Shown here piece by piece: positions 10,133 through 24,003 of a stretch of DNA of 64,000 nt. The notes beneath the pieces were generated by a model. It was not told where the DNA came from. It saw only the letters and a program-made list of their open reading frames with translations, and did no database searches. Position 1 is the first letter of the stretch. Each line of letters begins with the position of its first letter. Made by a program: the position numbers and the translations under genes. Source of the DNA: Lentimicrobium sp. (lineage in GTDB: Bacteria; Bacteroidota; Bacteroidia; Bacteroidales; Lentimicrobiaceae); assembly GCA_024709105.1 (NCBI GenBank), contig JANJXJ010000047.1:62001-126000 (forward strand), given 5' to 3'.

Positions 10133-10804
10133 TCAGTCTTCCTCACCTCCGGGTTTATATTCCACAAAAGTGTGGTCTGAATAAAAAATCACAATCTTCC
10201 TTACAGTCCGGCAATTGTTCTGCAATACTGCCGGGCTTTTTTTATTTTCTGGCGATGTTGTAGTGTTTTCAGATAATGGTTCCTGAACATAGGTTTCAGC
10301 AGAGGGTAAGTTATTCACATTTTCCGCCTTTTTGGGGGCTTCAGTGTTTGTTAATTTTTCTGAAGCAAAAATGTGTTCTTGAAATGATTGCTTATTTTCA
10401 TCAATATTATCTTCATTATCAAGTAAATGAGCAGGATTTTTACCAGTTGATTCCTCTTTTTCCTTCAAGTATTCGTTTGCTTCCTGATCATCGGGTGGAA
10501 ATAATTCCATGATTCCGGGTTGTTGTAATGGTTTCTGAATTTTTGTTTCATAAACTGATGGTTCTATTACTACCTGCTTTTCAACAGCTGGGTAAGGATT
10601 CATCATTGGGCCTTCACCGAACAAAAGCCAGTTCGTACTCAGATCAGGATACTTCTTCAGCAATTTCTGAATAAACTCCAGACTGGGTTTATTTCTGTTA
10701 TTCAAAATGTGTGATAATCCAGACCTCTGGATACCCAATTCATCAGCAAGCTGCGAAGGGGTGATATTTTTGGCTTTAATTACCAATGCTATACGAGTAT
10801 TCAT
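10133..10804 (-). CDS. XRE-type helix-turn-helix transcriptional regulator
   Basis: A 223-residue protein. Residues 3-60 form a lambda-repressor-like HTH ('ITPSQLADELGIQRSGLSHI', then 'LNNRNKPSLEFIQKLLKKYP'), followed by the 'STNWLLFGEGPM' tail common in Bacteroidota XRE proteins. Residues 75-195 are rich in Asn, Glu, Lys and Pro and look disordered. A short conserved C-terminal motif ('RKIVIFYSDHTFVEY') ends the protein. It probably binds a DNA dyad as a dimer. Its promoter region begins a 1-kb gene-free stretch full of repeated dyads, which are candidates for its own operators. It converges on ndk with abutting stop codons. Confidence 0.85.
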   Translation of the reverse strand: MNTRIALVIKAKNITPSQLADELGIQRSGLSHILNNRNKPSLEFIQKLLKKYPDLSTNWLLFGEGPMMNPYPAVEKQVVIEPSVYETKIQKPLQQPGIMELFPPDDQEANEYLKEKEESTGKNPAHLLDNEDNIDENKQSFQEHIFASEKLTNTEAPKKAENVNNLPSAETYVQEPLSENTTTSPENKKSPAVLQNNCRTVRKIVIFYSDHTFVEYKPGGEED

Positions 10805-11746
10805 AACTAAATAATTAGATTACAAAGGTAATATGATTTGCGGACTATTGCAATTAAAACAAGTTTAATTATGTAACATCCTAAAAGCTTATAGTTATCT
10901 AATATATAACTTCAGTACAACACGATATTAAGTTGAAAACAAGTAGTATAAAGATTTTTAACTTATATACAGTAGGTATGTTGTTCAGGTCTAAATAATC
11001 TAAAGTAAACATTTATATAAATATCTTTAAATACTGAAATACAGTATTATAAAGACATATTTAAGCTATTTTTAATACATTATATTGCGTATACAAATGT
11101 ATACTCTAAAATTTACAAATTACCGGACAATACAATTGTAAATATTACATAATTAAAATGGGTTATTACATTTGTAAGCGTGTTTAATTTACATTTGTAA
11201 CAAACCAAAGAAGATACAGTTGTAATCTTCTGTTTAAATATTTGCTATCTCCTTTTAATATCTACTAATCTAAACTTAAATATTATTCACTGGAAAAATA
11301 TACTTATGTACTGATATACAGCAGTATATACAGTTGTTAATTAACTTATCCTTAATATGTATGCTGCAATTTTAACGTAAACAGCCGAGTTTACAGATGT
11401 AATTTCGGGCTAGTATACTTAAAATCAGAAAGCGCCAAATAAATTGTATTCAAGAGTTGCCATAGTTGAATGATATTATACTTGCAGTACTTGAGCTTTA
11501 AAAGTTAAATCAATATTTTTGTCAACATCCGGATCGAATATTTACGAAAAACCATATACTATCCTTCCATCTTATCAAAGTGGTAATTTCAAATCATCTG
11601 TGCTTTGTTTCTACTTATGGACACTTGATTGTGCAACTTTACCCCTACAGAATCAAATATTCCCGGGCACAAGCTAAGAATAAACCAAATAATTGAAGTA
11701 ATCGGGGGAATAAAGGCACGAAATGTTGCCTAATCTATTGAATATC
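10805..11746. other. Gene-free AT-rich region with an array of short dyads
   Basis: No plausible coding frame on either strand in about 940 bases. The left part holds at least eight copies or near copies of the 11-mer TACAnwTGTAA at 10821, 11092, 11131, 11167, 11190, 11215, 11329 and 11392. Two larger related dyads of the form TACTG-(ATATA/AAATA)-CAG lie at 11030-11048 and 11308-11327, and the string ATACAG recurs about five times. The right part (about 11410-11740) shows no such pattern. The array lies upstream of the XRE regulator and downstream of the subtilase gene, so it most likely serves regulation of the former. Confidence 0.6.
10823..10854 (-). promoter_or_regulatory. Candidate promoter of the XRE regulator gene
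   Basis: On the minus strand TACCTTTG (10823-10830) matches the Bacteroidota -7 element TAnnTTTG, and ATTG (10851-10854) lies 20 bases upstream. The -7 box sits inside TTACAAAGGTAA, a member of the dyad family found further upstream, so the regulator could bind over its own promoter. Confidence 0.5.
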
Positions 11747-22566: not shown

Positions 22567-24003
22567 ATGAAAAGAGATCATGAGGGAGTCTGGGAGAATT
22601 GCCTGAATGTTATTAAAGACAACATCAACTACCAAAGCTACAAAACCTGGTTTTCGCCAATAAAGCCGGTTAAACTCGAAGATAACGTATTGACCATTCA
22701 GGTTCCCAGTCAGTTTTTTTATGAGTGGCTCGAAGAGCACTATATCAATTTGCTGAAGAAAACCATTAAGTCAGAATTGGGACCATTGGGAAGGCTTGAG
22801 TATTCCATAATTATGGAAAGTTCCAATGATTCCAGAAACCCTTACACCATTCAGGTTCCGGCAACCAAAAATGGTTCATTAGGAAATCCGTCAGTTAACA
22901 TGCCCATCGACCTGAACAAAGGATCATCAAAGGAGATACCCAACCCTTTTGTGATTCCCGGGCTGCGAAAGATAAAAGTTCACTCGCAGCTTAACGAAGC
23001 GTATTCTTTCGACAATTTTGTTGAAGGCGACTGCAACAGACTGGCCCGGTCAGCAGGTTATGCTGTTGCCACAAACCCGGGAAAAACAGCTTTTAACCCC
23101 ATTTTCATATACAGCGCTACAGGTTTAGGAAAAACTCATCTGGCACATGCTATCGGAATTCAGGTTAAAAATAATTTTCCTGACAAAACTGTACTTTATG
23201 TATCTTCTGAGCAGTTTATTCAACAGTTTATTGATGCCGTAAGAAATAACAATCAGAATGATTTTGTGCATTTCTATCAGATGATTGATGTTCTTCTGAT
23301 GGACGACATTCAGTTTCTTTCGGGCAAAGAAAAAACTCAGGATGTTTTCTTCCATATTTTTAATCATCTGCATCAGAACGGCAAGCAATTGGTGCTTACC
23401 AGCGACAAGGCTCCGGTAGAGATGAAAGGCATTGAACCCAGACTACTTTCCAGGTTTAAATGGGGTCTGGCTGCCGATCTTCAAATTCCGGATCTGGAAA
23501 CACGCATTGCTATTCTCCAGAAAAGATTGTACAAAGATGGCATCGAAATGCCTAACGATGTTATTGAATATCTGGCTTACAGCATCACAACAAATGTCAG
23601 GGAACTTGAAGGCGCGCTCATTTCGTTGATGGCTCATTCTTCGCTCAACAAAAAAGCCATTACCCTTGAGCTTGCCAGACAAATGATTGACAAGTTTGTA
23701 AAAAACACCTCAAAGGAAATCTCGATTGACTACATTCAGAAAGTAGTTTGCGATTTCTTTAATATACATGTTGATCACCTCAACTCAAAAACAAGGAAAA
23801 GAGAAATAGTGCAAGCCAGGCAATTGGCAATGTTTTTTTCGAAGAAACATACCAAATCTTCGCTTGCAACCATCGGTCTGCATTGCGGAAACAAGGACCA
23901 TGCAACTGTACTTCATGCATGCCGCACTGTAAATAACCTTATTGAAACTGACAAGCAGTTCAGGTTGTATGTTGAAGAAATTGAAAAGAAAATCAAGATT
24001 TAA
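22567..24003 (+). CDS. dnaA: Chromosomal replication initiator protein DnaA
   Basis: A 478-residue AAA+ initiator that binds DnaA boxes at oriC and opens the duplex. Domain I is at the N-terminus ('VWENCLNVIKDNINYQSYKT', then WF), followed by a linker rich in Asn/Ser/Pro (about 80-135). Walker A 'SATGLGKTHLAHAIG' lies near 182-196 and Walker B 'VLLMDDIQFLSGKEKTQ' near 240. Domain IV carries the DNA-binding signature 'KDHATVLHACRTVNN' near the C-terminus. Length and start are normal for Bacteroidota. A hairpin follows the stop, then the phosphatase gene. No oriC-like cluster of boxes was seen on either side. Confidence 0.97.
   Translation: MKRDHEGVWENCLNVIKDNINYQSYKTWFSPIKPVKLEDNVLTIQVPSQFFYEWLEEHYINLLKKTIKSELGPLGRLEYSIIMESSNDSRNPYTIQVPATKNGSLGNPSVNMPIDLNKGSSKEIPNPFVIPGLRKIKVHSQLNEAYSFDNFVEGDCNRLARSAGYAVATNPGKTAFNPIFIYSATGLGKTHLAHAIGIQVKNNFPDKTVLYVSSEQFIQQFIDAVRNNNQNDFVHFYQMIDVLLMDDIQFLSGKEKTQDVFFHIFNHLHQNGKQLVLTSDKAPVEMKGIEPRLLSRFKWGLAADLQIPDLETRIAILQKRLYKDGIEMPNDVIEYLAYSITTNVRELEGALISLMAHSSLNKKAITLELARQMIDKFVKNTSKEISIDYIQKVVCDFFNIHVDHLNSKTRKREIVQARQLAMFFSKKHTKSSLATIGLHCGNKDHATVLHACRTVNNLIETDKQFRLYVEEIEKKIKI

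Follow-up and report, generated by a model that had tools for sequence, protein, structure and literature searches.

The window, i.e., the whole 64-kb stretch of Lentimicrobium DNA that was analysed, carries on its minus strand (10133..10804) a gene, here termed xre, for a 223-residue XRE protein with an N-terminal HTH_3 domain, a variable linker and a C-terminal beta-hairpin (KIVIFYSDHTFVEYKP). The HTH_3 assignment relies on a Pfam match with an E value of 7.4e-10 and 39.2 bits against a curated cut-off of 23; no Pfam domain other than those of HTH families was matched, NCBIfam matches fell far under the cut-off, and the sequences of solved structures matched the HTH part only. A fold search placed SinR, P2 C and C-proteins among its top-ranked hits, none of them at an E value of 0.001 or below. 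In an AlphaFold2 model the pLDDT blocks reached 93-97 for residues 1-70 and 88-91 for residues 201-220 (70.4 overall), and this model, together with an alignment of 27 homologues, describes a variable and poorly predicted linker in which an LF pair is conserved, followed at the C-terminus by a beta-hairpin whose motif is KIVxFYSDxTFxEYxP. The LF pair (residues 101-102) is almost invariant across the family though the linker varies, and it may represent a short partner-binding motif, e.g., a sliding-clamp or divisome contact.

The DNA upstream of xre had been predicted to be gene-free and to contain eight 11-mers of the form TACA-n3-GTAA, the first of them covering the -7 promoter box of the regulator itself. 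The open-reading-frame list indeed holds no frame of at least 50 aa between 10804 and 11519, and all eight 11-mers are present (at 10821, 11092, 11131, 11167, 11190, 11215, 11329 and 11392); six are perfect, while the copies at 10821 (TACAAAGGTAA) and 11329 (TACAGTTGTTA) are one step off. The array of dyads thus stands, but its spacing is better described as TACA-NN-TGTA, a palindromic unit that in the window sequence often extends to the 12-mer TTACA-NN-TGTAA. This n2 spacing had been overlooked in the original prediction, as had the arrangement in two clusters, an oriented element in the gap between them and the closeness of the locus to a dif-like site.

The candidate promoter-proximal operator, TTACAAAGGTAA (10820..10831), is one step off and overlaps, as claimed, the -7 box TACCTTTG of xre (10823-10830, minus strand), which conforms to the Bacteroidetes -7 consensus TAnnTTTG. 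A second proximal dyad (10865..10876), degenerate and conserved, reads TTACATAATTAA on the minus strand and aligns with TTACAnnnnTAAc upstream of the gene in the same genus. The distal cluster comprises the perfect predicted operators TACAAATGTA (11092..11101), TACAATTGTAA (11131..11141) and TACAGTTGTAA (11215..11225), as well as two copies of the perfect 12-mer TTACATTTGTAA (11166..11177 and, 23 bp beyond, 11189..11200), the perfect TTACAGATGTAA (11391..11402) and the weaker, one-step-off copy at 11329..11339.

Six perfect TACA-NN-TGTA sites fall within 310 bp of gene-free DNA (11092 to 11401), and the whole window contains seven, against a mean of 0.72 and a largest value of 4 in 100 dinucleotide shuffles. 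Similarly, TACANNTGTAA has eight strand matches at five places in the window, where 0.57 would be expected on average and none of 100 shuffles reached eight. A genome-wide count, which had been proposed together with the original prediction, returned 34 plus 32 strand matches of TACANNTGTAA across the 4.47-Mb genome compared to 36 plus 34 for the reversed control, and no second cluster was found in the list of matches from this genome. Because the motif is thus no commoner than its reversed control, the array in the window is a local concentration rather than a reflection of a generally common motif. Equal density of the motif in other AT-rich DNA, which had been named as counting against the array, was likewise not observed: six sites were found in 182,500 bp of overlapping windows. 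Rfam returned no match anywhere in the 64-kb window.

The gene and its array were subsequently followed in relatives, where homologues at an E value of 0.001 were detected in 51 of the 60 genomes searched, the present genome counted. Among 18 other genomes of the genus, 14 carry a clear orthologue, two a weak match and two none. The array, whose absence beside orthologues had also been named as counting against it, is present with at least two perfect sites at 13 of 15 same-genus loci (the present one included), the exceptions being L016 and L005, both of which have none, the upstream DNA of L005 including unread bases; in other families of the same order, at least one upstream site was found at 11 of 15 loci. 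The best 80 of 578 further candidates contain 207 sites in 72.8 kb of 1-kb upstream regions and 22 sites in the remaining 1.16 Mb of these loci, i.e., the upstream regions are ~149-fold denser, and of the 75 loci among them with at least 300 upstream bases, 72 have a site and 57 have two or more. Across all loci with at least 350 upstream bases, at least one, two and three sites were present at 121, 99 and 68 of 135, respectively, and in a less redundant set at least one site was present at 99, and at least two at 79, of 113 loci, duplicates between collections having been removed solely by the 9-mer filter that defines this set. Depending on the analysis, a locus was required to have at least 300, 350 or 420 bases of upstream DNA. 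L032 and L033, whose contigs are the same as those of L014 and L013, were dropped from the 135-locus, gap-element, recognition-helix and orientation counts and retained in the 149-fold density, the neighbour comparison and the inter-cluster phasing, while L211-L216 were included in the recognition-helix, 135-locus and orientation counts. The window neighbours ndk, DHH, FKBP and S8 are common to only part of the best 80 of 578 loci; the array, as judged from these sequence comparisons, travels with homologues of xre across several orders while the neighbours differ.

This association has its boundaries. In a survey of 296 genomes of the phylum, matches at an E value of 1e-16 or better were obtained in 41, all of the same class as the present genome, and no homologue at 0.001 was found in 195, the family being absent or diverged past detection in most of the surveyed genomes. 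No perfect TACA-NN-TGTA occurs in the 1 kb upstream of the G314 gene, and Hymenobacter loci have few sites (a single perfect one in G061). The gut Bacteroidales homologues L280-L282, from Parabacteroides, Bacteroides and Phocaeicola, have 0, 1 and 0 sites within 1 kb, respectively; their upstream region is still AT-rich, with the TACA-NN-TGTA array missing, and their operator may therefore have changed. At L280 and L281 the xre gene comes after holA, from which it is separated by a gap of 840-1150 bp. The two annotated records among these homologues are filed as plasmids, though they contain housekeeping genes. At the loci of family f47 (L218-L239), the distal cluster adjoins an apparent divergent start codon, read by eye, and may there control a second gene as well. 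A second array was considered at L242, where six TACANNTGTA sites occur, and was discarded as these are scattered inside one ORF of 5899 aa. Genome-wide counts of TTACANNTGTAA are above the control in certain genomes (19 vs 11, 15 vs 6 and 21 vs 12) and below it in others (1 vs 11 and 2 vs 10); the XRE protein may, given the former, have a small regulon besides the array.

The positions of the sites across the loci are bimodal, with groups at about -200 to 0 and -450 to -300 and few sites at -300 to -200, the distal cluster extending to about -730 in the genus of the window. The sites at -60..-10 are predominantly TT-centred (63 of 81, with 8 AA-centred) and read TACATTTG on the coding strand, which we take to be the Bacteroidetes -7 element; among more distant sites the TT/AA ratios were 29/16, 23/43 and 11/14. 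The predicted proximal site thus overlaps the -7 box and is oriented as it is, an arrangement that supports autorepression. Neighbouring sites are often 13, 24, 34-36 or 46-47 bp apart, which corresponds to a lattice of ~11 bp (Rayleigh z 27.0; 99 spacings at the 113 non-redundant loci), as expected of protein on one face of the helix. Phasing of the distal relative to the proximal cluster was weak, with Rayleigh z values of 0.6-2.4 at 10-11 bp and of 10.1 at a period of 12, and clear helical phasing is limited to neighbouring sites. The multi-site autoregulatory nucleoprotein array that had been proposed is therefore well supported by its conservation with the gene, by the -7-oriented proximal site and by the phasing, the XRE protein being its presumed binder.

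The gap between the clusters contains an oriented AT-rich element of 48 bp, which in the window lies at 10996..11043 on the minus strand and scores 24.6 bits against an EM-derived profile. At 12 bits or more, the element was present on the gene strand at 77 of 111 loci, on the other strand at two and in no shuffled sequence, the contrast between strands being the fairer control since the profile was trained on the same loci. Its best columns read A[TC]CA[GA]....TTA, from which the window copy deviates at two core positions and which presumably represents the IHF consensus WATCARNNNNTTR. Across 109 loci, the latter occurs 34 times on the gene strand and 11 times on the opposite strand, compared to 5.5 in Markov shuffles and 10.1 expected from AT-rich DNA elsewhere. 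Of the two TACTG..CAG dyads, at 11030-11048 and 11308-11327, the former overlaps this conserved element. Based on these sequence features we propose that a bend protein of the HU/IHF family may act at the gap element.

That the adjacent XRE protein itself binds the array sites is an assumption drawn from the sequences, for which the presumed recognition helix provides a supportive indication only. Where this helix starts with QR, QP, QA or QK, 7 of 113 loci lack sites, compared to 7 of 22 loci with other starts (Fisher p 0.002, or 0.005 with QQ moved into the first group), a grouping that was made after the data had been seen and is confounded by GC content and phylogeny; helix residues and array presence would accordingly appear to vary together. 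Ten loci with few sites or with a divergent recognition helix were also searched for alternative repeated dyads, which yielded nothing convincing.

A scan with known dif sites exposed a dif-like site. In the present genome this site, TATAATTTATATTATGTCAA (G000:C183:37188-37207), lies on the same contig as the gene at a distance of 35 kb, and 24.8 kb beyond the window, within which matches to the generic dif pattern are at chance level. The pattern TATAATTNATATTATGTNAA, searched in 16 genomes with up to two mismatches, has exactly one perfect match in each of 12, and a match with one mismatch in three more (G199, G094 and G060); in G183 the best match has two mismatches, which is chance level, a reversed control matching as often. 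Sites with at most one mismatch were accordingly present in 15 of 16 genomes of this first set, and in 25 of 30 of a second. In all genomes dif is a prediction from sequence, and the genomes examined for dif and skew were those with contiguous assemblies among the genomes with hits.

Fourteen chromosome-scale records, of which 12 are single-contig genomes, one is the Hymenobacter chromosome and one the G060 scaffold, were used to determine the distance between xre and dif, which ranges from 0.95 kb (G314) to 478 kb (Hymenobacter G061) with a median of 90 kb. The gene lies within 5% of chromosome length from dif in 12 of the 14 records, in 10 of 12 without G183 and G060, and in 9 of the 10 with a perfect dif, the lengths of eight chromosomes in these tests being rounded values. 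Taking genomes as independent, the corresponding Fisher p value is 6e-10 (1e-7 when only the 10 records with perfect dif matches are used), and with one genome per family it is 7e-5; as the genomes are related, these probabilities overstate independence. Among control genes, ndk was within 5% in 2 of 14 records (p 0.15), one of them being G060, where ndk adjoins the XRE gene, and dnaA likewise in 2 of 14 (p 0.23). In the present genome dnaA (a Bac_DnaA match at window positions 22990-23475, i.e., G000:C183:84990-85475) is separated from the array by ~12 kb and from the dif-like site by 48 kb, and is thus near the terminus and not the origin; elsewhere its distance from dif varies, with a median of 575 kb in the 14 records.

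The proximity of xre to dif is also apparent in draft genomes. Among 25 drafts of the order, which were taken from 59 relatives and are not a random draw, 20 have a dif-like site when no more than one mismatch is allowed, and it shares a contig with the best XRE match in 11 of these (G005, G006, G009, G013, G018, G020, G025, G035, G038, G048 and G054), at distances of 3-78 kb, and is on another contig in the remaining 9. This count leaves out G063, G065, G064, G062 and G361; the XRE match of G029 is weak, and a weaker XRE match on the dif contig of G045 was not counted. For the 13 drafts of known contig size, a shared contig was observed in 7 and expected in 0.49.

GC skew and rRNA genes provide further positional data. 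On contig C2 of G001, the skew turns from positive to negative between about 408 and 418 kb, and the gene, at 448 kb, is 30-40 kb away. Four single-contig genomes were sampled at ten points, and the gene is in or beside such a switch in G235 and G291 and, less clearly, in G160 and G275, whereas it is 0.33-0.54 Mb away in Hymenobacter G061; in the scaffolded record G060 the skew is noisy but compatible, the sampling being coarse and the signal weak or noisy in G160, G275 and G060. The dif-like site is at or near the switch, within sampling, in the seven genomes with skew data, being ~40 kb off in G001. The latter genome has two switches from positive to negative. The one on C1 falls on an rRNA operon (at 1112761), and C2 starts with another such operon; the C1 switch looks like a repeat-mediated misjoin in the assembly, and the C2 switch was used instead. 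In G235, G160, G061, G271 and G199 the terminus is flanked by 16S rRNA genes on either side, with xre inside the arc each time, and a one-sided 16S constraint is compatible in eight further genomes; G314 gave no 16S match, and G001, whose rRNA copy at C2:246 is on the strand opposite the local skew, is uninformative for this test. A replication- or segregation-related role, which had been a guess, has consequently gained support from position data as far as a link with the replication terminus is concerned.

Several known systems resemble the XRE-array locus in part. In Bacillus subtilis the rtp gene adjoins TerI/II and encodes a winged-helix protein, RTP. Like rtp, the present gene is near the terminus (12 of 14 records within 5% of predicted dif; 35 kb in the present genome). 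Its predicted proximal sites overlap the -7 box and share its orientation, and may act as binding sites in its own promoter. Unlike RTP, the protein is of the HTH_3 type, with no homology to RTP encountered, and the sites are symmetric 12-bp palindromes (TTACA-NN-TGTAA) in one cluster with an IHF-like element, no polar sites being encountered. MatP-matS combines a terminus-specific DNA-binding protein with palindromic matS sites dispersed over the terminus region; palindromic sites and a terminus-linked DNA-binding protein are shared features, whereas the present motif is packed into less than 1 kb and is near control level elsewhere. Looped operators of the phage Mu or lambda type with IHF have two clusters, a bend site between them and a repressor acting on its own promoter, to which the two predicted clusters with an IHF-like element between them may be likened, although the present array is chromosomal and kept beside its gene in several bacterial orders. 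In PMC10331603, both RTP and Tus are described as controlling their own promoters by way of a ter site located there, RTP being a dimer whose polarity results from unequal A/B half-sites and Tus a polar monomer. Tus-Ter of Escherichia coli is thus likewise an autoregulated protein-site pair linked to the terminus, but its sites flank dif on both sides, while the present system involves an unrelated protein and a single cluster of palindromic sites. PMC8565304 describes non-canonical Bacteroidetes LexA proteins with a CI-type N-terminal HTH, an S24 peptidase domain and control of SOS genes, one of which binds TTAC-AAATT-GTAA in its own promoter; in contrast, Pfam found no S24 peptidase domain in the XRE protein, and the spacer is N4 here and N5 for LexA. 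RTP of Bacillus subtilis may thus be considered the nearest functional analogue, protein and sites both being non-homologous. No description of such an XRE-array unit was found in the open-licence literature searched.

The layout is best explained by autoregulation through a complex that spans multiple sites and is probably looped. Dimers of the XRE protein would bind the TTACA-NN-TGTAA palindromes of the adjacent array as their dedicated target, the protein seeming to be devoted mainly to this one place since the rest of the genome shows hardly any enrichment of the motif. The proximal cluster would cover the xre promoter and repress xre, and the distal cluster, mostly 300-600 bp upstream, would join it in one complex by virtue of helically phased spacing and, probably, a bend at the IHF/HU-like gap element. 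Array, conservation, layout, phasing and proximity to a dif-like site are features of the sequences themselves; we infer binding, repression, looping and the bend protein. Gene and array would accordingly form a single autoregulated nucleoprotein locus, held near the terminus in many Bacteroidia chromosomes, whose complex, given the nearness to dif, most likely serves the terminus, hypothetically in fork arrest or fusion, in anchoring or segregation, or in sensing that the terminus has been copied. We lean towards this reading, with guarded confidence. Against a terminus function are the lack of polarity, since the operators are palindromic, unlike known fork-arrest sites, and the location of the array on one side of dif and 1-478 kb from it rather than on it.

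An ordinary autoregulatory operator region of unusual size, belonging to an XRE regulator whose true regulon is small or employs weaker sites and whose proximity to dif is passively inherited, represents a possible though less probable explanation. The proximity could be passive, since an inversion that is symmetric about the ori-ter axis leaves the distance from dif unchanged, and gene orientation fits inversions spanning dif: the gene points away from dif, on either side, in all 11 genomes of families f46 and f47, which resemble Flavobacteriales and were treated as such, and toward it in 10 of the 11 drafts with dif on the same contig. The overlap and shared orientation of proximal operators and -7 box, and the excess of TTACANNTGTAA in some genomes, are likewise in agreement with this explanation. 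Simple autorepression, however, needs no two clusters 300 bp apart that are conserved over several orders, and proximity to dif has stayed while neighbours were reshuffled, which was not the case for ndk and dnaA, few as two controls are.

Two further explanations appear very improbable. A chromosomal replication origin or origin-control site, with two iteron clusters round an AT-rich stretch with an IHF-like site, was first suspected from the iteron-like, phased layout and from dnaA 12 kb away in the present genome; it was rejected as skew near the locus switches from positive to negative and not the reverse, as the gene is in the arc of convergence in the five genomes where 16S genes bracket both sides, and as DnaA-box-like 9-mers are hardly above control (10 vs 5 in 87.8 kb), with dnaA itself a median of 575 kb from dif. 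There is equally little to be said for a plasmid or prophage remnant with its own immunity or partition array, even though the HTH resembles phage-type repressors such as P2 C and SinR-like domains and a weak Phage_CI_repr match was obtained. Only records of one phage and three plasmids were matched, in each case by an N-terminal portion that makes up 29-38% of the query, and the two plasmid records with annotation look like chromosomal pieces, having holA, AMP nucleosidase and dihydroorotate dehydrogenase; moreover, homologues are found in the 51 of 60 genomes mentioned above, and a scan of three neighbouring genes identified NDK, a DHH protein and a secreted subtilase.

Returning to the autoregulated locus serving the terminus, a bolder and rather unlikely extension would be that many Bacteroidia possess a third independent terminus system, convergent with Tus-Ter and RTP-Ter, in which one phased array near dif and an XRE protein devoted to it halt or fuse forks, or anchor the terminus for segregation and XerCD resolution. 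If true, the conserved protein-array pair near dif would constitute a concrete, deletable candidate for terminus handling in these bacteria; if autoregulation is its only function, the locus would still stand out as an operator architecture that is unusually large and conserved, and would lend itself well to studies of looping.
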